Below are positions 1,266 through 10,068 of a DNA stretch of 10,379 nucleotides, one piece after another. The stretch is from assembly GCA_023132075.1 (NCBI GenBank), contig JAGLYT010000029.1, positions 1-10,379 of the forward strand, written 5' to 3'. Below the pieces are notes generated by a model that did no database searches, was not told where the DNA came from, and saw nothing but the letters and a program-made list of their open reading frames with translations. How positions within the stretch are numbered: the first letter of the stretch is position 1; each line of letters starts with the position of its first letter. Both the position numbers and the translations under genes were made by a program. This DNA is from JAGLHV01 sp023132075 [NCBI: bacterium]. GTDB taxonomy: Bacteria; CBDUZB01; JAGLHV01.

Positions 1266-2057
1266 TCAAGGATTACCTGTTCGTTTTTTGTAAATTCTCT
1301 TTATGCTCAAGGCTTTACCTGTTCCTTCATCTATTTCGATAACCACTCCCTCAAAAATAGGCCCTTCCCGGGCTACTTCAAAACGTACAGGTAGACCGGT
1401 TAAATATCTTTTTAAAATTATTTCTTTCTTTACTCCGATTATAGAATCTCCCGGTCCGGTCATACCTGCATCAGTAATATATGCCGTGCCCCCGGGCAAA
1501 ATCCTTTCATCAGCAGTAGGAACATGAGTGTGAGTACCAACAACAGCACTTACTTTACCATCAAGATAGAACCCAAAACATAATTTTTCCGAGGTTGCCT
1601 CCGCATGAAAATCCACAAAAATAACAGAGGTTTGTGTTTTTATTTCTTCTATAATCAAATCACTCTTTCGAAACGGACAATCCAAATTAGACATAAAAAC
1701 ACGCCCCATAAGATTTATTACTCCGATTTTTACTCCCTTAAAACTGGGAACATAGACATTAAAACCTTTACCGGGAACATTTGGAGGATAATTTGCCGGA
1801 CGAAGAATCCGGGGATGGCCTATAATTTCAAAAACTTCTTTGCGATCCCAGGTATGATTTCCTAAAGTAATAACATCTACCCCCAAAAAAAATATTTCCT
1901 CAGCCACTCGGGGAGTAATACCGGCCCCACCGGCTGAGTTTTCTGCATTAACAATGGTAAAATCTATTCTTTCCTCTTTTTTTATTCCAGGTAATAACTC
2001 TTTTAATATTTTTCTACCTGCCTCTCCCACAATATCAGCAACAAACAGTAATTTCAT
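1266..2057 (-). CDS. ymdB: YmdB-family metallophosphoesterase (TIGR00282)
   Basis: The 263-residue protein matches the usual YmdB length (264 in Bacillus subtilis). The calcineurin-like dinuclear metal site is intact: D8 in LLFVADIVG, E39 and N40 in VNAENSAGG, N67 and H68 in TLGNHTWD, H151 in VDFHAEATSEK, and H176 and H178 in GTHTHVPTADERILPGG. The family hydrolyses 2',3'-cyclic nucleotides in vitro and in B. subtilis influences biofilm and late adaptive gene expression; it is a cytosolic enzyme. Translation starts at ATG 2055-2057 with AGGTG 5 bases upstream. It follows rny after 109 bases, the classic ymdA-ymdB pairing, and its stop overlaps the possible TTG start of the next ORF. A candidate promoter lies in the gap upstream, so it may be expressed both with and apart from rny. 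Confidence 0.95.
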   Translation of the reverse strand: MKLLFVADIVGEAGRKILKELLPGIKKEERIDFTIVNAENSAGGAGITPRVAEEIFFLGVDVITLGNHTWDRKEVFEIIGHPRILRPANYPPNVPGKGFNVYVPSFKGVKIGVINLMGRVFMSNLDCPFRKSDLIIEEIKTQTSVIFVDFHAEATSEKLCFGFYLDGKVSAVVGTHTHVPTADERILPGGTAYITDAGMTGPGDSIIGVKKEIILKRYLTGLPVRFEVAREGPIFEGVVIEIDEGTGKALSIKRIYKKRTGNP

Positions 2058-2166: not shown

Positions 2167-3726
2167 CTATTTTGCTAATTCCACCGCCCTTATTTCCCTA
2201 ATAACGGTAACTTTTATTTGTCCGGGATATTCTAATTCCTGCTCTATCTTCTTAGCAACGTCTCTGGCTAATTGCGCTGCACAATTATCATCTATATCTT
2301 CCGGTTCAACTATAATTCTTAACTCCCTGCCGGCTTGAATTGCATAACTTTTTTCCACTCCCCGAAATTCATTAGCTATTCCTTCCAGCTTTTCCAATCT
2401 CTTCAAGTAATGTTCTAAACTTTCTCTCCTTACCCCCGGACGGGAGGCGGAAATTGCATCCGCTGCCTGAAGTAATACTGCCTCTACACTCCTTGGCTCT
2501 TCCCCTCCTTCATGATGAGATAAAATAGCATTACACATTTTATCCCCTTCGTTGAATCTTTTAGCTAAATCCGCCCCTATTTGAGGGTGGGAACCTTCTA
2601 CTTCATGGTCTATTGCTTTTCCAATATCATGCAAAAGTCCTGCCCGTTTACTAAAAGCAATATCTACCCCTAATTCCGCTGCTAAAACCGTCATAATGCG
2701 AGCTACTTCTTTGCAATGCTGTAAAACATTCTGACCATAACTCGTTCGATATTTTAACCTGCCTATTAACCTTGTTAATTCAGGATGAAGGCCGACTATT
2801 CCTAATTCAAAAACAGTTTGTTCTCCTACCTCTTTCAAGAAAACCTCCATCTCTTTGGTTACTTTCGCTACAACTTCTTCGATACGGGTAGGGTGAATCC
2901 TTCCATCGGTAATCAATCTTTCTAAAGCTACCCTGGCTATTTCTCTTCTTACCCCGTCAAAAGCAGATAAAGTAATCGCCTCAGGGGTATCATCAACAAT
3001 TAAATCAACCCCGGTAATAGTTTCAAAAGCACGAATATTTCTCCCTTCCCTACCAATGATCCTCCCTTTCATTTCATCGCTGGACAAAGAAACGGTTGAT
3101 ACCGTAATATCCGCAGTATGATCCGCAGCACATCTTTGAATAGACAAACTAATAATCTCTTTTGCTTTTTTACCGGCGATTTCCCGTGTTTCTTCTTCCA
3201 TTTTTTTCACTAACGCTGCCGATTCATGGGTAAGAGTTTTTTCTATATTTTGTAAAAGAAGTCCCTTTGCTTCTTCACAACTCATTCTGGCTACTCTTTC
3301 TAAAACTTTTTTCTGTTCTTCATCCTGTCTGCTTATTATTTGTTCTTTTTCCCGAAGCTGCTTATCCAGATTAGACAAAGACTTTTCTTTTATTTGGGTC
3401 TCTCTTTCTTTTCTGTCTAAAATATCCATTTTTTTATCCAGATTTTGCTCTTTCTGAACTAATCTTTTTTCCGCATTATTCAGTTCTACTCGACGGCTAC
3501 GACTCTCTTTATCAAATTCTATTCGAATCCGGTGCCTTTCTTCTTTTATTTCCAAAAACCCTTCTTTCTTCTTCGTTTCCGCTTCTCTAACAGCCTCTTC
3601 TAAAATCCTTTTAGATTCTTTTTCCGAAAGATTCATCTTAAACTTAACATAGATCTTCCTTCCTAAATAACCTAAAAGTATTCCTGAAAAAAGGCTGCCT
3701 ATCATCAATAAACCAAAATTATTCAT
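2167..3726 (-). CDS. rny: Ribonuclease Y
   Basis: The 519-residue protein has the full RNase Y layout (520 in Bacillus subtilis). An N-terminal membrane helix spans about residues 4-21. A long charged coiled coil (about 30-195) follows. The KH RNA-binding domain holds the signature GRIIGREGRNIR (221-232). The HD catalytic domain has LQHCKEVARIM around 335-345 and LLHDIGKAIDHEVEG around 364-378, with H366 and D367 as the metal-binding HD pair. It is a membrane-anchored endoribonuclease that starts mRNA decay. Translation begins at ATG 3724-3726 after an AAGGGGC ribosome site. It lies 65 bases downstream of the cyclo-ligase gene and upstream of ymdB, its usual neighbour. Nothing is truncated or missing. 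Confidence 0.97.
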   Translation of the reverse strand: MNNFGLLMIGSLFSGILLGYLGRKIYVKFKMNLSEKESKRILEEAVREAETKKKEGFLEIKEERHRIRIEFDKESRSRRVELNNAEKRLVQKEQNLDKKMDILDRKERETQIKEKSLSNLDKQLREKEQIISRQDEEQKKVLERVARMSCEEAKGLLLQNIEKTLTHESAALVKKMEEETREIAGKKAKEIISLSIQRCAADHTADITVSTVSLSSDEMKGRIIGREGRNIRAFETITGVDLIVDDTPEAITLSAFDGVRREIARVALERLITDGRIHPTRIEEVVAKVTKEMEVFLKEVGEQTVFELGIVGLHPELTRLIGRLKYRTSYGQNVLQHCKEVARIMTVLAAELGVDIAFSKRAGLLHDIGKAIDHEVEGSHPQIGADLAKRFNEGDKMCNAILSHHEGGEEPRSVEAVLLQAADAISASRPGVRRESLEHYLKRLEKLEGIANEFRGVEKSYAIQAGRELRIIVEPEDIDDNCAAQLARDVAKKIEQELEYPGQIKVTVIREIRAVELAK

Positions 3727-3791: not shown

Positions 3792-4385
3792 TTATGCCGC
3801 TTTTTTAACTTTAATAACTCTATCTTCGGTAATTATTAAATTCATATCTACATCGTACTTTTTTTTGAGGGGAATTTCATTTATCACCTGTAATTCATAA
3901 GCCAACCCTGCCCGGCAAACCTCTTTTTTTAATTTATTTAAAAACCGATCATAATATCCATACCCAAATCCTATTCTTTGCCCTTTTCGATCAAAAACTA
4001 TCCCCGGAACAATTACCATTTCAATATTGTTTTTGTTAAATTTTTTCATTAAAGACTTTTTTATTCCCATAATCCCAAATGCTCCTTTCGTTAATTGTTT
4101 TTTATAATCTTTCTTTACTTCAAATACTTCCATTTTCCCTTGCCTGTCTATTACTGCGGGTAATACAACCCTCTTCCCCATATTTAAGGCAGTATCTATC
4201 ATTTCCTCCGTTCCTACTTCTCCCTCAAAACTGAAATAAAACATAATCACGCGTGCTTTCTTAAATTCCTGTAAGGAAAACACCCTTTGAGCTATTCTCC
4301 TGCTTTTTTCCTTTTTATCCTTAACCAAAAGGCTATTTCTTAATTTTCTGAATTTATCCCTTAAATTATTTTTATCTGTTTTCAT
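3792..4385 (-). CDS. ygfA: 5-formyltetrahydrofolate cyclo-ligase
   Basis: The 197-residue length is normal for the family. It converts 5-formyltetrahydrofolate to 5,10-methenyltetrahydrofolate using ATP, recycling an inhibitory folate in the cytosol. Supporting motifs are a basic N-terminal helix (KNNLRDKFRKLRNSL, 6-20), FYFSFEGEVGTEEMI (49-63) with conserved acidic residues, PGIVFDRKGQRIGFG (127-141) and the hallmark GYGYYDRFL (141-149). The ATG at 4383-4385 lies inside the end of rarA, overlapping it by 14 bases, so the two are translationally coupled. Its own ribosome site (GGGAAAG) is weak. In proteobacteria the orthologue (ygfA/fau) lies just downstream of the 6S RNA gene; here rarA separates them. 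The main alternative, an unrelated Rossmann-like protein, is excluded by the GYGYYDR signature. Confidence 0.93.
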   Translation of the reverse strand: MKTDKNNLRDKFRKLRNSLLVKDKKEKSRRIAQRVFSLQEFKKARVIMFYFSFEGEVGTEEMIDTALNMGKRVVLPAVIDRQGKMEVFEVKKDYKKQLTKGAFGIMGIKKSLMKKFNKNNIEMVIVPGIVFDRKGQRIGFGYGYYDRFLNKLKKEVCRAGLAYELQVINEIPLKKKYDVDMNLIITEDRVIKVKKAA

Positions 4386-5676
4386 TCTTTCCCATCAAAT
4401 TAATCAACCGTTTTTTTATTCCTGATTCATATCCCTCTTCCGTCGGCTGATAATAACTTTTTTCTTCCGGTAAATATTCCTGTTTGACATGGTGCCCGGT
4501 AAATTTATGGGGGCATTTATATTTCTTTACCTGTTCAAATTTGTTACTATGACTATCTTTTAAATGAAGAGGAACCTTCTGAACTGCTTCTTCCTCTATA
4601 TCTTTTAAAGCTTTCTCAATCCCTAAAAAAGATGCATTGCTTTTAGGGGCACAAGCAACATAAACAGCTGCCTGAGAAAGAGGAATTTTTCCCTCAGGCA
4701 TACCTACAAACTCACTAATTTTTAATGCCGCCGCCGCTACACATATCGCCTGAGGATCCGCATTTCCCACATCTTCCGAAGCACAAATAGCAATTCGACG
4801 GGCAATAAATCGGGGATCTTCCCCGGCATAAATCATTTTTGCCAACCAATACAAAGTGGCATCGGGATCAGAGCCCCGCATACTTTTAATAAAAGCTGAA
4901 ATTGTATTATAATGTTCATTTTCTTTTTTATCATAAAGAAGAACCTTTTTCTGGATGGATTCTTCACTTACTGAAACAGTAAAATTAATCATATTTTTTT
5001 CATCGGGGGATGTAGTAATTACCCCTAATTCTAAGGCATTCAATGCTTTCCTTGCATCACCTCCTGCAGTTTCAATCAAATGATTGAGAGCTTTTTCTTC
5101 CATATTTATCTTGTATTTTCCAAAACCCTTATTAGAATCAATTATTGCATTCTTTAAAATAGTTTCTATTTCTTTCTCTCTCAGAGCCTTAAACTCAAAT
5201 ATTACCGACCGGGAAATCAAAGCAGAATTTAAATAAAAATAAGGGTTATGTGTAGTAATACCTATTAAAGTAATTATTCCTTTTTCTACATTGGGGAGGA
5301 GAACATCCTGTTGAGTTTTATTGAAATGATGGATTTCTTCAATCAACAATATGGTTTTTTTATTGTTTTGTACCCTTCTTTGCTCAGCACATTTTATCTC
5401 TTTTCGCAAATCGACAACCCCGCAAGTTACTGCATTTAAAGAAATAAAACTACTTTTTGTCGTTTTAGCAATAACATTAACTAATGCCGATTTTCCACAG
5501 CCGGAGGGACCATAAAGAATTAGGGAAATAATCTTATCTGCCTCAATAAGCCTGTGCAAAAGTTTATTTTTTCCTAATATATGCTCCTGTCCGACAAACT
5601 CTCCCAAATTTTCAGGACACATACGTAAAGTCAACGGCATATCTTTTCGGTTTAGCTGTTGATTAAACAAATCCAT
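4372..5676 (-). CDS. rarA: Replication-associated recombination protein A (RarA/MgsA), AAA+ ATPase
   Basis: From the chosen ATG this is 434 residues, normal for RarA. The family acts at stalled replication forks, related to clamp-loader and RuvB-type ATPases. Seen in order: the N-terminal LGEFVGQEHILGK (24-36), Walker A GPSGCGKS (56-63), Walker B LLIEEIHHFNKTQQD (110-124), sensor 1 GITTHNP (139-145), arginine finger region SALISRS (151-157), sensor 2 GGDARKALNALE (205-216), and the C-terminal tetramerisation/MgsA region ending in YYQPTEEGYESGIKKRL. Three sites differ from the usual pattern: Walker A is normally GPPGTGKT, Walker B DEIHRF is EEIHHF here, and sensor 1 TTENP is TTHNP. The fold is intact, so it is probably active but divergent. 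ATG 5674-5676 was chosen over the in-frame TTG at 5688 because GGGG stands 6 bases before the ATG. It is the first gene after the 6S RNA and overlaps the cyclo-ligase gene. Confidence 0.93.
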   Translation of the reverse strand: MDLFNQQLNRKDMPLTLRMCPENLGEFVGQEHILGKNKLLHRLIEADKIISLILYGPSGCGKSALVNVIAKTTKSSFISLNAVTCGVVDLRKEIKCAEQRRVQNNKKTILLIEEIHHFNKTQQDVLLPNVEKGIITLIGITTHNPYFYLNSALISRSVIFEFKALREKEIETILKNAIIDSNKGFGKYKINMEEKALNHLIETAGGDARKALNALELGVITTSPDEKNMINFTVSVSEESIQKKVLLYDKKENEHYNTISAFIKSMRGSDPDATLYWLAKMIYAGEDPRFIARRIAICASEDVGNADPQAICVAAAALKISEFVGMPEGKIPLSQAAVYVACAPKSNASFLGIEKALKDIEEEAVQKVPLHLKDSHSNKFEQVKKYKCPHKFTGHHVKQEYLPEEKSYYQPTEEGYESGIKKRLINLMGKNENR

Positions 5677-5682
5677 TTTATT

Positions 5683-5686
5683 CCCC
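5683..5686 (-). promoter_or_regulatory. Ribosome binding site deciding the rarA start
   Basis: GGGG on the minus strand stands 6 bases before ATG 5676. It overlaps the alternative TTG codon at 5688-5686, so the ATG start fits better and gives the family-typical MDLF N-terminus. Confidence 0.55.
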
Positions 5687-5762
5687 AATCTTATCTTTAA
5701 TTCAAAGATATTTTACATTACATACCCTAATTTATGTTTTTTCACCCGCACCGGACTTATTT

Positions 5763-5942
5763 ACCTTCAAATAAAAAACCCCCGCGTATGCCGTGTGTGC
5801 AGTCCTTTTGAAGCACCAGATACCAGGTGGGTATTCCGTTTCTGTAACCAAGATTACAGAAAACCGAAGAATTCCCTGATTTAGGCTTGTAGGCCCAAAA
5901 TGATCAACACAACACTAACACCGCAGGGATATATTAAAGGTC
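5763..5942 (-). ncRNA. ssrS: 6S RNA (RNA polymerase regulator)
   Basis: About 180 nt in the non-coding gap between zapA and rarA, the expected 6S size and location. 6S RNA mimics an open promoter and holds the housekeeping RNA polymerase holoenzyme in stationary phase. The ends pair over a long range: CCCTGCG (5928-5922) with CGCGGGG (5786-5780), and outside it ACCTTTAA (5941-5934) with TTGAAGGT (5770-5763). GTGT just inside the 5' arm can pair with the ACACAC on the 3' side. A central open region carries a small side hairpin, GGGC-CTACAA-GCCT, on the 5' side and CACC/GGTG on the 3' side. A perfect 8-bp hairpin, TTCTGTAA/TTACAGAA (5860-5841), caps the molecule. GC content is higher than in the flanking DNA. 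Exact ends are estimated from the promoter and the outer stem. The linkage to zapA on one side and rarA then ygfA on the other independently supports the call. Confidence 0.9.
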
Positions 5943-5949
5943 TATATAT

Positions 5950-5978
5950 ATTTTACTAAAATTTTAACATTTTTTCAA
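5950..5978 (-). promoter_or_regulatory. Candidate housekeeping promoter of 6S RNA
   Basis: On the minus strand TTGAAA (5973-5978) and TAAAAT (5950-5955) are 17 bases apart. The predicted start, about 7 bases on (near 5942-5943), coincides with the 5' end of the outer closing stem of 6S RNA. That agreement between promoter and RNA structure is the main support. Transcripts reading through from zapA may also contribute, as known in E. coli. Confidence 0.6.
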
Positions 5979-6046
5979 ATTATAATCCCTTTTTGCAACC
6001 CCTACTCAGAAAAACTTTAATTTTCTTTCAGATTCATAATATAAAC
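5979..6046 (-). other. AT-rich spacer between zapA and the 6S promoter
   Basis: This remainder of the 370-base protein-free gap (5677-6046) holds no ORF and no clear terminator hairpin after zapA. Read-through from the pheST-zapA operon into 6S RNA is therefore possible. The other flank, 5677-5762, is the rarA leader and shows only short, weak hairpins. Confidence 0.5.
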
Positions 6047-6331
6047 TCATTCTAAAGCAGTATCTAATAATTTAATTAACTCCTCGGTATCTTTTTCCAC
6101 TGAATCATGAAGAAAATTTTTGTTTTCCTTTAATTTAAACAATTCATCAGCAATATTCAATGCTGCCAGCACCGCTACTTTGTTTGTGTCTACAATGTTA
6201 GTAATGTGTGAAATCTCTTTCATTTTTTGATCAACTAAAGAAGCTAAAGAATATACATGCAAAGGATCTTCTTCGCTGGTAACTTCATATTCCCTGCCGA
6301 ATATTTTTATTACTATTTTATCTTTAGCCAC
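6047..6331 (-). CDS. zapA: Cell division protein ZapA
   Basis: The 94-residue protein fits the short ZapA family. It opens with KIVIKIFGREYEV (5-17), the typical beta-strand start, and contains DTNKVAVLAALNIADEL (48-64), the conserved helix signature of the family; a C-terminal helix suited to coiled-coil dimerisation follows. ZapA binds FtsZ and promotes bundling of protofilaments in the division ring. The start is GTG at 6329-6331 with GGGTG just upstream. It follows the small coiled-coil gene by 19 bases in the pheS-pheT operon and precedes the 6S RNA gene, the arrangement known from many bacteria. Confidence 0.92.
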   Translation of the reverse strand: MAKDKIVIKIFGREYEVTSEEDPLHVYSLASLVDQKMKEISHITNIVDTNKVAVLAALNIADELFKLKENKNFLHDSVEKDTEELIKLLDTALE

Positions 6332-6350: not shown

Positions 6351-6590
6351 CTATATTTTAAATTTTTCCATCTTTCCTAAAAGTTTTGTTATCCTTTCTT
6401 TTATTTCTTTTTTCCCATCATAAAGCACTTCATTTTCTTTAATCAACTTCCGGGCCTTTTCATTTTCCTTTTCTAAAAACTTCAATTTCTCACTGTTTTT
6501 TTTAATTTTTTCTTTTAATAACTTATTTTCTTCTTTTAAAAAATAAACAACTTCTACTGTTTTTTTTATTTTTTCTTTTAATATTTTCAT
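6351..6590 (-). CDS. Small coiled-coil protein, ZapB-like design
   Basis: The 79-residue protein is almost entirely one predicted coiled coil. It is rich in Lys and Glu, with Leu/Ile at heptad spacing from about residue 15 to 75 (FLKEENKLLKEKIKKNSEKL, 17-36, is representative). It has no signal peptide, membrane helix or enzymatic motif. Its place between pheT and zapA, and its size, resemble the ZapB-like or unnamed coiled-coil genes found there in other lineages; ZapB is a FtsZ-ring factor that works with ZapA. The functional link is inference from context, because coiled coils give little family signal. The ATG at 6588-6590 has an in-frame stop three codons upstream and only a weak, distant ribosome site, so translation may depend on coupling with pheT, which ends 30 bases earlier. 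The segment LKEKIKK occurs twice, 21 residues apart. Confidence 0.7.
   Translation of the reverse strand: MKILKEKIKKTVEVVYFLKEENKLLKEKIKKNSEKLKFLEKENEKARKLIKENEVLYDGKKEIKERITKLLGKMEKFKI
6492..6583 (-). repeat. Imperfect 28/29-base direct repeat inside the coiled-coil gene
   Basis: The copies at 6492-6520 and 6556-6583 read ACTG-T8-A(A)-T6-C-TTTT-AATA on the plus strand and differ only by one A. They encode the two LKEKIKK segments 63 bases apart. The indel moves the shared ACAGT on the coding strand into a different frame, giving NS in one copy and TV in the other. Low-complexity composition may explain part of the match. Confidence 0.5.
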
Positions 6591-6620: not shown

Positions 6621-9032
6621 TTATTTATCCCTTATTTTTACTTTAAAATTTTCCTCCAGCGACTGAAGCACCTCATTATGAATAAAATTAACCTCTTTAT
6701 CCGTTAAAGTTTTTTCCTTGGATTGATAAACAATAGAATAAGCCAGACTCCTATACCCTTCATCTATTTGCTTCCCCTGATAAACATCAAACAATTTTAT
6801 TTGAGAAATAACCTCCCCTCCTGTTTTTTTAATTTGAGAAGAAACCTGAAAATAAGAAATTTCTTTAGGCACCACTAAGGCTACATCTCTTATCACAGCC
6901 GGATATTTACTAATCGATAAATAACGCCTTCTGAGATTTTGACTTTTTAGAAGAGCATCCATGCTTAATTCGAAACCATAAACAGGTAAATCAAAATTAT
7001 ATTTTTCCGCTATCCAGGGAGATACTTTACCAAGTTGTCCTATCTGTTGCTTCCCATTAATAATTATTCTTGCCGATTGTCCCGGATGAAAAAGCAAATT
7101 CGCCCCTTTCTCCATTTTGTAATTCTTGATTTCTAAACTTTCCAGAAGAGATACCAGAACCCCTTTTAAATAATGAAAATCAACTTCCTTAGATTTTTTT
7201 TGCCAATAAGATTCTTCTATCATTCCACAAACCGCACCGGAAAACATCTTTTTCTCTTCCGGTAAAAGTTTATTTCCCTTACTCAAAAATATTTTTCCCA
7301 ATTCAAACAATTTAAGATTATATAAATTGTAACTACTGTTTTTTGAAATATTTTCGAAAATACTTCCCAGAAGAGTTGTACGCAAAAACCCATATTCGCG
7401 AGACAGAGGATTTTTAACCTTCACCGCTTTAGCATAATAAAACTCTTCCCCAACCCCTAATTTCTTAAATTCCTCCTCACTACTAAAAGAATAATTTATT
7501 ACTTCGAAAAACCCTGCACCGACAAAAAAATTCTTTACTTCCCTTTCCAATAAAAATTCCTGATTAGGACTATATTCCAAACTTTCCCATTGGGGAACAG
7601 CAGGAGTAATTTCATCATATTTATAAATACGGGCAATCTCTTCTATTAAATCAATTTCCCTGCTTACCTCCCTTCTAAAAGCGGGAACCATTACTTTTAG
7701 ATTGGAATTATTCTCCGAATTACATTCAAAACCTAACCGCTTAAGTAAAACCTGTATTTGCTTTCCGGACATTTCTATCCCCAAAATCCTATTAACCTGT
7801 TCCGGTCTCAAAGTAATCTGCTGAGGAACAATTTTTTGAGGATATTGATCAATAATCCCTTCTACTACTTCACCCCCGGCTATCTCTCTAATCAATGAAG
7901 TAACTCTATTTATGGCTTTTGCCGCCATTTCAAAATCAGTCCCTCGTTCAAATCGATAGGAAGATTCTGTACTTAACCCTAATTTTTTAGAAGTTCTACG
8001 AATATTTATTGCATCAAAATAAGCACTTTCAATAAGTAAATTACAAGTTCCTTCATTCACCTGAGAATTACTTCCCCCTATTATACCGGCCAAAGCAACG
8101 GCCTTTTTGTCATCGGCAATTACTAACATATCCTTACTTAATGTATATTCAACACCGTCCAATGCACCAAATTTTTCTTTTTCCTCTGCCCGACGAACAA
8201 TAATATGATGATTACTAATAAGATCGTAATCAAAGGCATGGAGGGGATGTCCTAATTCCATTAAAACATAATTTGTTGCATCCACAACATTATTAATAGC
8301 CCTTAATCCCACCATCTCCAAACGGTGTTGCAGCCAAAATGGTGATGAAGAAACTTTAACATTTCTAATGACCCTGGCCAGATAACGGGGACAAAGTAAG
8401 GAATCCTTTATTGTTACTTCTCCCTGTTTTTCTATTTGTTTCCCCGTGTTTTTTAACTCCATCTCCGGTAATTTAAAAGGAACATTTAAAACAGCAGCTA
8501 CTTCCCTAGCTATTCCTATTACACTCAAACAATCCGGGCGATTAGGTGTAATTTCCAGGTCAAGAACTACATCGGGCAAAGGAAATACTTCTTTGAGTTC
8601 TTTCCCTAACGGAGTTCCCTCGGGTAAAATAAGTAATCCTGCCGCATCATCGGAAATACCAAGTTCTTTAGCTGAACACATCATCCCTTCCGAATCAACT
8701 CCCCGTATATTAACCGGCTTTATTAATTTGTTTTCACTTAAGACAACTCCCTCCAAAGCTACGGGGACAATATCTCCCTCTTTCATGTTTTTCGCCCCAC
8801 AAACAATACTATATTCTTTTTTACCTGTATCTACTTTACAAACCGTTAGGCGATCCGCACGAGGATGTGCTTCAACAGACAGGATTTTTCCGACAATAAC
8901 ACCGTCTATTCCCTCTCCTATGGATTGCATACTTTCTACATTTATCCCTAAACTAACTAATTTATCAGCCAACTCTTCAGCAGATAAATCAAAATCCACA
9001 TATTCTTTCAGCCAACGATAGGTAATTTTCAT
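6621..9032 (-). CDS. pheT: Phenylalanyl-tRNA synthetase beta subunit
   Basis: The 803-residue protein has the full bacterial PheT architecture. An EMAP/OB-fold tRNA-binding domain spans about 40-150 (IVGKILSVEAHPRADRL, 46-62; VCGAKNM, 77-83). B3/B4 follows at about 210-385, containing NNVVDATNYVLMELGHPLHAFD (247-268) and LLIESAYFD (332-340), which are the editing-site motifs. B5 lies at about 402-475 (SREIDLIEEIARIYKYDEI, 457-475), then a catalytic-like core. The C-terminal ferredoxin-fold anticodon-binding domain (about 705-803) starts with SKYPAVIRDVALVVP. It pairs with PheS as an alpha2-beta2 enzyme charging tRNA-Phe and hydrolysing mischarged Tyr-tRNA. ATG 9030-9032 has AAGGG 7 bases upstream and lies 16 bases after pheS. 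No domain is missing. Confidence 0.98.
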   Translation of the reverse strand: MKITYRWLKEYVDFDLSAEELADKLVSLGINVESMQSIGEGIDGVIVGKILSVEAHPRADRLTVCKVDTGKKEYSIVCGAKNMKEGDIVPVALEGVVLSENKLIKPVNIRGVDSEGMMCSAKELGISDDAAGLLILPEGTPLGKELKEVFPLPDVVLDLEITPNRPDCLSVIGIAREVAAVLNVPFKLPEMELKNTGKQIEKQGEVTIKDSLLCPRYLARVIRNVKVSSSPFWLQHRLEMVGLRAINNVVDATNYVLMELGHPLHAFDYDLISNHHIIVRRAEEKEKFGALDGVEYTLSKDMLVIADDKKAVALAGIIGGSNSQVNEGTCNLLIESAYFDAINIRRTSKKLGLSTESSYRFERGTDFEMAAKAINRVTSLIREIAGGEVVEGIIDQYPQKIVPQQITLRPEQVNRILGIEMSGKQIQVLLKRLGFECNSENNSNLKVMVPAFRREVSREIDLIEEIARIYKYDEITPAVPQWESLEYSPNQEFLLEREVKNFFVGAGFFEVINYSFSSEEEFKKLGVGEEFYYAKAVKVKNPLSREYGFLRTTLLGSIFENISKNSSYNLYNLKLFELGKIFLSKGNKLLPEEKKMFSGAVCGMIEESYWQKKSKEVDFHYLKGVLVSLLESLEIKNYKMEKGANLLFHPGQSARIIINGKQQIGQLGKVSPWIAEKYNFDLPVYGFELSMDALLKSQNLRRRYLSISKYPAVIRDVALVVPKEISYFQVSSQIKKTGGEVISQIKLFDVYQGKQIDEGYRSLAYSIVYQSKEKTLTDKEVNFIHNEVLQSLEENFKVKIRDK

Positions 9033-9048: not shown

Positions 9049-10068
9049 TTAAAATTGTTTCAAAAACCTTAAATCATTCTCATAAAACAAACGTATGTCA
9101 GTAATACCGTATTTAATCATTGCCAAACGTTCTATCCCGCCGCCAAAGGCAAAACCCGTCCACTCTTCCGGATCATAACCAACCGCTTTGAATACATTCG
9201 GATCCACCATCCCCGCACCAAAAAGCTCTAACCATCCTGTTTGCTGGCAAACACTACAACCCTTTCCCTTACATAAAACACAGCACACAGAAACCTCCGC
9301 ACTTGGCTCAGTAAAAGGGAAAAAACTGGGTGTTAATCTAATTTCAATGTCTTCCCCAAACAATTGTCTGAAAAATATCTTCATAATACTTTTTAAATGC
9401 CGAAAGGTTATTTCCTTACCGACAACCAATCCTTCCACCTGATGAAAAACAGGTGAATGGGAAGCATCTATGGCATCACTCCGGTAACATCTTCCGGGAG
9501 CAATAATACGCAAAGGAGGTCTGTTTTTTTCCATTACTCTAATTTGAACAGGCGAAGTTTGAGTTCTCAAAACTATTCCGTCAGAGATATAAAAAGTAGC
9601 CTGCATATCCCGCGCCGGATGATCTGGAGGAGTATTTAAAGCTTCAAAATTATAATATTCGGTTTCTACCTCAGGTCCTTCCACAATATCAAAATTTAAT
9701 TTTTCGAAAATAACTTTTATTTCTTCTAAAATTTTAGTCAAAGGATGTAATTTTCCCCGTGCCAAAGGTTTTCCGGGAAGAGTTATATCCAAATCATCCT
9801 TTAAATCATTTTTATTAATTAACCGCTTTAATTCTTCCTGTTTTAAACTTAATAGAAGATCAATTTCTTCTTTTATTTCATTTGCCAATTTGCCAATGAT
9901 TTTCCGTTCCTGGGGAGAAAGTTGTTTCATTATACGCAAAATCTTAGTCACTAACCCCTTTCTTCCTAAATACTTAATCCTTATTAGTTCCAAATCCTCT
10001 TTTTTTTCTTTTATTTGGGCTATTTCTTTTTTTGCCGTTTCCCTTAACTTTTCTAATTCTTTCTCCAC
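9049..10068 (-). CDS. pheS: Phenylalanyl-tRNA synthetase alpha subunit
   Basis: The 339-residue protein is a typical bacterial PheS. An N-terminal coiled-coil arm (about 1-90) binds tRNA-Phe. The class II catalytic domain follows, with LHPLTKILEEI (106-116), the motif-2 region CYRSDAIDASHSPVFHQVEG, the Cys-rich CCVLCKGKGCSVCQQTGWLE found in many bacterial PheS proteins, and motif 3 GGGIERLAMIKYGITDIR near the C-terminus, which ends NDLRFLKQF as usual. The start is GTG at 10066-10068 with GAGGAG 8 bases upstream. It follows the TPR gene by 16 bases and precedes pheT by 16. No T-box or leader peptide can be judged, because the operon start lies beyond the right edge. Confidence 0.98.
   Translation of the reverse strand: MEKELEKLRETAKKEIAQIKEKKEDLELIRIKYLGRKGLVTKILRIMKQLSPQERKIIGKLANEIKEEIDLLLSLKQEELKRLINKNDLKDDLDITLPGKPLARGKLHPLTKILEEIKVIFEKLNFDIVEGPEVETEYYNFEALNTPPDHPARDMQATFYISDGIVLRTQTSPVQIRVMEKNRPPLRIIAPGRCYRSDAIDASHSPVFHQVEGLVVGKEITFRHLKSIMKIFFRQLFGEDIEIRLTPSFFPFTEPSAEVSVCCVLCKGKGCSVCQQTGWLELFGAGMVDPNVFKAVGYDPEEWTGFAFGGGIERLAMIKYGITDIRLFYENDLRFLKQF

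Follow-up and report, generated by a model that had tools for sequence, protein, structure and literature searches.

The locus and its 6S RNA gene

We analysed a stretch of 10,379 nucleotides (the window) of contig JAGLYT010000029.1, assembly GCA_023132075.1, from the bacterium JAGLHV01 sp023132075. On its minus strand a 6S RNA gene lies between the cell-division gene zapA and rarA, within the gene order pheS-pheT-zapB-like-zapA-6S-rarA-ygfA-rny-ymdB (Table 1), in which ygfA encodes 5-formyltetrahydrofolate cyclo-ligase (5-FCL). An earlier reading, made from the letters of the DNA (the sequence-only reading), had proposed that zapA, 6S, rarA and ygfA are contiguous on one strand, and all four were confirmed in place; it was silent on the ZapB-like open reading frame (ORF) and on the flanking pheS-pheT and rny-ymdB. 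The arrangement is old and is found in several unrelated phyla, and is not the oddity of one organism.

Table 1. Features of the 6S RNA locus in the window, in the direction of transcription.
Feature	Positions	Strand	Evidence and remarks
pheS, phenylalanyl-tRNA synthetase alpha	9049..10068	-	TIGR00468 342.8 bits; 5' end of conserved cluster
pheT, phenylalanyl-tRNA synthetase beta	6621..9032	-	TIGR00472 889 bits
ZapB-like coiled-coil ORF, 79 aa, directly upstream of zapA	6351..6590	-	PF06005 33.9 bits, cut-off 31.5
zapA, cell-division protein, 94 aa, GTG start	6047..6331	-	PF05164 74.9 bits
Promoter-like TTGAAA-17-TAAAAT ahead of 6S	5950..5978	-	10/12 consensus bases
6S RNA gene (ssrS)	5775..5932	-	RF00013 56.5 bits, gathering 46.4
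T6 run directly 3' of 6S closing stem, terminator-like 3' end	5773..5778	-	Read from sequence
rarA (mgsA), AAA+ replication-fork ATPase	4372..5688	-	PF12002 205.6 bits
ygfA/fau, 5-FCL	3792..4385	-	PF01812 141.2 bits; TIGR02727 165.5 bits
rny, ribonuclease Y	2167..3726	-	TIGR03319 709.5 bits
ymdB, TIGR00282 metallophosphoesterase	1266..2057	-	TIGR00282 306.5 bits

Where the sequence-only reading had put a 6S RNA at 5763-5942, the scan with the Rfam model RF00013 matched 5775-5932 (E 2.4e-9) over the full length of the model (1-187), and this was the sole match at E up to 0.001 in the window's assembly, which is about 87% complete. The predicted fold has a long closing stem and a terminal hairpin, its central region differing between the minimum-free-energy and centroid structures, and is markedly stable compared with shuffled sequences (z -4.43; 0 of 200 shuffles equally stable). 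The window's phylum was represented by three genomes, all of which carry 6S; between the window and its two relatives, mean column identity is 97% across the 6S gene vs 89% across the full zapA-rarA interval that contains it. Both the promoter-like elements ahead of 6S (TTGARA and TAAAAT, spacing 17) and the T6 run after the closing stem (GGGGGTTTTTTAT) are preserved in all three genomes; this 3' end was absent from the output of a terminator scan in which loops were limited to 3-8. The gene is a genuine 6S RNA gene. A chance Rfam match or a mis-assembly might be suspected, given that the relatives are metagenome-derived and that the match is merely 10 bits above the gathering score, but the recurrence of the same order in three genomes and of the same slot in other phyla led us to reject an artefact, to which we allow practically no chance.

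Neighbouring genes and conservation within the phylum

The order from pheT to ymdB is identical in the three genomes of the phylum; the contig of one relative (G001) begins inside pheT, and in the other (G002) the cluster reaches further upstream, past infC-rpmI-rplT (names read from the translations). The RarA proteins of the relatives are 82 and 91% identical to that of the window. The sequence-only reading had also pointed to a translational overlap of rarA with the cyclo-ligase gene, and an overlap of 14 nt is indeed present in the window and in both relatives. A Caldilineaceae locus (L008), with a RarA 50% identical, gave no RF00013 match at E up to 0.01.

The RarA domains PF12002 (MgsA_C), PF16193 (AAA_assoc_2) and PF00004 (AAA+ core) all scored over their cut-offs. 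Although rarA was called from a TTG at 5688, the ATG at 5676, preceded by GGGGA, looks the likelier start. The Walker B Asp-Glu pair, which we take to be a RarA motif, is altered here, residues 117-120 reading EEIH, not DEIH, in all three genomes of the phylum; DE is present in all 88 other RarAs with a readable Walker B (15 of 106 were not read by the pattern). Since Glu-Glu is a conservative substitution and the domains score like those of a RarA, we keep that name. The assignment of ygfA is supported by an equivalog score of 165.5 vs a cut-off of 84.9 bits (TIGR02727). ZapB-like ORFs precede zapA in many genomes of the survey described below, and a match to PF06005 (E up to 0.01) was found in 26 of 31 scanned, these being 31 of 43 candidate ORFs picked by eye, with the window and its two relatives included.

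A further ORF (739-1269, 176 aa) is located after ymdB in all three genomes of the phylum and has a weak likeness to LIMLP_15305 (65.3 bits vs a cut-off of 210).

6S neighbourhoods across the bacterial domain

We surveyed 193 genomes, ranging from the window's phylum across the domain. A 6S match (E up to 0.001) was found in 105 of them, 89 being over the cut-off, and 88 genomes gave no match. Outside the phylum this provided 104 neighbourhoods from 102 genomes, in which genes were called by iterated profile search starting from the window proteins; the counts cover matches above set bit scores, on the 6S strand and within about 5.2 kb. An upstream zapA was detected in 42 of the 102 genomes (within 200 nt in 40; the farthest at 811 nt) and an upstream pheT in 17. 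Downstream of 6S we found rny in 45, ymdB in 36, ygfA in 23 and rarA in 13, and 61 genomes had one or more of the seven target genes (a set that includes pheS) near 6S. With random placement in 102 genomes of some 3 Mb each, the expected number having a same-strand rarA that starts no more than 1.2 kb downstream is about 0.02, compared with the 13 seen, among which the farthest rarA is 957 nt from 6S. Pfam scans, with the window's phylum included, confirmed ZapA in 43/43 (43 of 45 being scanned), RarA in 15/15 (a set without the RarA of G104, which is cut by the contig end) and 5-FCL in 26/26. Thus 6S often sits in a pheST-zapB-zapA-6S-(rarA)-(ygfA)-rny-ymdB cluster.

Two pairs of candidates were discarded: rarA matches in G014 and G162 (189.8 and 185.5 bits) were read as DnaX, a YbaB-like ORF following, and weak matches of 845 aa in G017 and G164 as Lon, both being our own readings rather than the result of a library search.

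The RNase Y gene, often followed by ymdB, occurs within about 2.2 kb downstream of 6S in the same 45 genomes, and RNase Y might act in the processing or decay of 6S. No 6S-RNase Y pairing was found in the titles and abstract openings listed.

The rarA slot in different phyla

The order is not unique to one assembly: beyond all three genomes of the window's phylum, 6S is flanked by zapA and rarA in seven others, making eight phyla. A same-strand rarA follows within 200 nt of 6S in G023, G170, G113, G144, G090, G040, G104 and G175; the gap is 499 nt in G094 and about 425-610 nt, by subtraction, in five further genomes of its family, f93. In five of the eight phyla (the window's and those of G023, G113, G144 and G090) ygfA comes after rarA, and in G094 rny follows rarA directly. 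The contigs of G040 and G104 come to an end here, and no ygfA was found after rarA in G185, from the phylum of G040. The phylum searches place the groups of G000, G023, G040, G094, G104 and G144 each in a small phyla-level unit of its own, that is a separate phylum, and the groups of G090 and G113 in larger phyla; the latter two were sampled, and the case for their being distinct from each other is built on the sampling scheme and the trees.

Within these phyla a rarA downstream of 6S was found in all 20 principal loci of the phylum of G090, in 7/7 new principal loci of that of G094, in 4/4 new loci of that of G023, in both genomes of that of G040 and in one of two loci of that of G144. The phylum of G113, with 40 genomes carrying 6S, provided 30 loci, of which 29 were new and counted, and 26 of these have rarA downstream. 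Here the 6S-rarA gap is about 0.9 kb in G216 and, by estimate, more than 1 kb in G217 and G224, and 6S and RarA are on different contigs in G205 and G227. Family f172 of this phylum (G193, G195 and G197) has zapA-6S-ygfA-rny with RarA elsewhere; G230 has the same order and no RarA match. In the phylum of G144, G233 likewise has zapA-6S-ygfA-rny without a slot rarA. Since the slot is both filled and empty inside two phyla (those of G113 and G144), it must have been filled or emptied more than once. No 6S match was obtained in G232 (phylum of G144), in 3 of 9 genomes of the phylum of G023 or in 9 of 29 of that of G090.

A true RarA lies 704 nt (G031) and 957 nt (G048) past the 6S end; both are among the 13 and were labelled unlinked in the RarA trees. 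In G017 and G164, 6S-rarA occurs without other cluster genes being found, and their RarA lies among the unlinked ones.

In G185, a 34.5-bit RF00013 match, below the cut-off, lies between zapA and rarA (L291:5911-6063); flanked in this way, it indicates that synteny can support weak 6S matches. Second 6S-like copies were seen in six genomes (G090, G244 and G259, loci L272-L274; G269, G270 and G273, loci L302-L304), three of the six being below the cut-off, and none of zapA, rarA, ygfA and rny was found at any of the six loci. They call to mind the pair of 6S RNAs that some Firmicutes have.

Phylogeny of RarA and of the cluster genes

For RarA we assembled 106 rows, excluding proteins of <450 bits (survey) or <350 bits (later loci), those of <250 aa and the second rows of genomes. 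The RarA tree held 66 of these (15 of 53 linked and 51 of 53 unlinked; G197 and G110 left out), and changes of label were counted over 11 linked rows, one per group, and the 51 unlinked survey rows. The linked label required 5 changes vs 10.3 when shuffled, none of 500 shuffles being as low, in a tree whose bootstrap had not converged. With all 106 rows, near-copies included, the figures were 5 vs 35.8. One branch (97/86) separates 42 unlinked RarAs from the rest, and nine unlinked RarAs share a region of the tree with the linked ones. Because the slot RarAs cluster in this way, many independent insertions of local rarA genes are unlikely.

A second tree was built from joined PheS, PheT, RNase Y, YmdB and YgfA, for genomes with at least two of the five proteins (6 of 96 being dropped). 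It held 67 of 90 rows, was obtained by a quick search, and 39 of its 67 rows were less than half filled; G096 was labelled linked although its contig stops within rarA and showed no 6S. On this tree the label required 10 changes vs 21.3 when shuffled, with at least 6 forced. Loss-only and gain-only models fitted alike, with lnL -22.81 vs -22.96 on 46 thinned rows (10 of them linked, with preference for a linked row where a phylum was mixed; 15 rootings tried) and -35.60 vs -35.83 on 67 rows. In the RarA tree and in the gain and loss models, one row per phylum is known to hold for the phylum-checked linked rows and assumed for the others. The cluster is old and has been changed repeatedly, and the data do not say that it is ancestral.

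These results bear on the proposal of the sequence-only reading that the order is ancestral and that the known layouts arose from it by loss. In its fullest form, pheST-zapB-zapA-6S-rarA-ygfA-rny-ymdB would have been present in an early bacterial ancestor, and the layouts lacking rarA, ygfA or rny-ymdB would stem from repeated loss. This is consistent with several observations: wherever a true RarA follows 6S in the rows read, the two share a strand, and ygfA and rny come after rarA; the subset layouts look like the full one with genes simply deleted; slot RarAs from ten groups (without G017; eight known separate phyla) lie outside the clade of 42 unlinked RarAs; and both slot states occur within two phyla. 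However, loss-only performed no better than gain-only, at least 6 changes are forced, lactic acid bacteria have rarA then 6S, and a direction of change would need a soundly rooted tree. We regard this history as possible and would not lean towards it.

A later gain of rarA, to which we give a little less than an even chance, would start from an old core, pheST-zapB-zapA-6S-(ygfA)-rny-ymdB, which rarA entered once or a few times, spreading by descent and block transfer, so that phyla with rarA elsewhere never had a slot copy. The core without rarA is indeed the commoner, and the f172 trio has that core with RarA elsewhere, the two of its RarAs that were placed both falling among the unlinked ones. 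Moreover, the 5 changes on the RarA tree vs 10 on the cluster-gene tree, counted on different row sets, look as though the type of RarA and the cluster had sometimes moved separately. Yet one would not expect, a priori, that rarA had entered one and the same slot, on the same strand, independently in distant phyla, and the RarAs of the phylum of G113 form a long branch of their own, as expected from old inheritance.

Comparison with known 6S loci

In the available passages of PMC7641849, the order zapB-zapA-ssrS-(ygfA) is described for beta- and gammaproteobacteria, a dicistronic ssrS-ygfA transcript is reported in Escherichia coli and a growth-mode switch is argued for ZapAB-SsrS-FAU1-EVE. 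Our E. coli K-12 control likewise showed zapA-ssrS-fau. Like the proteobacterial unit zapB-zapA-ssrS-(fau/ygfA)-EVE, the window has 6S immediately preceded by a zapB-like ORF and zapA on its own strand, with ygfA downstream. Unlike it, the window has rarA between 6S and ygfA, so that ygfA is not next after 6S, as well as pheS-pheT upstream and rny-ymdB downstream, and no EVE domain was found in the ten window proteins covered by the Pfam scan. The proteobacterial layout does not require the ancestral rarA that the sequence-only reading put forward as a possibility, because zapA-6S-ygfA-rny without rarA occurs in many genomes.

Nearly all species of lactic acid bacteria have rarA upstream of 6S, Bacillus subtilis rarA is oriented oppositely, and a stress network of rarA, 6S and uspA has been argued (PMC8414754, as far as the passages available go). 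The window resembles rarA-6S-uspA in having rarA beside 6S and differs in that rarA is downstream and no uspA was found in the same ten proteins. The derivation of the Gram-positive layout by loss is not supported by this evidence, given that rarA lies upstream in lactic acid bacteria and deletion from zapA-6S-rarA-ygfA alone cannot yield that order. Neither zapA nor ygfA occurs in the main text of PMC8414754.

The ncRNA table of PMC4227106 lists the Aquifex aeolicus 6S at pheT, to which the linkage of the window's 6S cluster with pheT is similar; the passages available there contain no neighbourhood analysis. More generally, 6S RNA is said to have no syntenic pattern valid for all bacteria (PMC9130861, in the part available). 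Our literature search retrieved nothing uniting 6S RNA, rarA and zapA, or three of RarA, ZapA, the cyclo-ligase (under its full name) and ribonuclease Y, and no further account of this gene order was found in titles and abstract openings; an earlier description of parts of it is possible.

Interpretation of the cluster

Genes, order, recurrence across phyla and the clustering of the slot RarAs are observed. Taking them together, we consider it likely that a real 6S gene sits in an old multi-phylum cluster, of which the window carries the version with the rarA slot filled, and that the cluster persists mainly through shared transcription and long co-inheritance. During slow growth, 6S RNAs occupy the housekeeping holoenzyme as mimics of an open promoter, and the synthesis of product RNA releases them. 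By analogy, the 6S of the window would be transcribed from a promoter in the zapA-6S gap, fold into an RNA-polymerase-binding rod and act like known 6S RNAs. The closing stem and T6 run would end most transcripts, and read-through or processing may supply a rarA-ygfA message, in the manner of the E. coli ssrS-ygfA transcript (PMC7641849, available passages). Such read-through from 6S into rarA-ygfA would be the simplest reason for the slot.

Several points weigh against this explanation. The transcription steps are ones that we infer. Promoter-like sites number 10 in the region vs 10.1 by chance, and the conserved T6 run could insulate rarA from 6S. Of the 102 genomes, no more than 13 have a rarA in or near the slot, and for 41 the search of the 6S strand over about 5 kb gave none of the seven genes, some of those loci stopping at a contig edge. 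Furthermore, a single clade of all linked RarAs except that of G017 was rejected by the approximately unbiased (AU) test (p 0.022; a group named after seeing a tree), so that more than one joining or separation of rarA and slot happened.

The sequence-only reading had gone further, seeing a hint of a functional link between 6S control, fork repair and folate recycling, and gene order alone gives no test of such a link. As a dedicated module, 6S control of RNA polymerase, RarA fork repair and folate recycling would be purposely co-regulated, for example at the entry to dormancy. Retention across phyla fits this idea, as do the growth-mode switch (PMC7641849) and stress network (PMC8414754) argued in the passages available of those papers. 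Nevertheless, the argument is one from gene order; the linkage also takes in pheS, pheT, rny and ymdB, in keeping with growth genes that have been retained as a cluster, and in the 41 genomes just mentioned none of the seven was found close to 6S. We judge a dedicated module improbable, and we think that such a pathway is not needed to explain the cluster.

Implications

The multi-phylum cluster offers an anchor for finding diverged 6S genes, such as the weak match in G185, and gives a testable history for the zapA-6S-ygfA linkage. It also puts an RNA-processing enzyme, RNase Y, near 6S in 45 of 102 genomes, which by itself reveals no new mechanism. A bolder proposal, which we hold to be rather unlikely, is that the nine-gene order is a remnant of the cluster of an early bacterial ancestor and that the slot RarA is an ancient, vertically inherited copy, which elsewhere, in many phyla, has given way to another type of RarA. 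If true, this would tell where in the genome 6S RNA was originally located, next to RNase Y and YmdB as constant neighbours, and would make the proteobacterial zapA-6S-ygfA a shortened form of the cluster.

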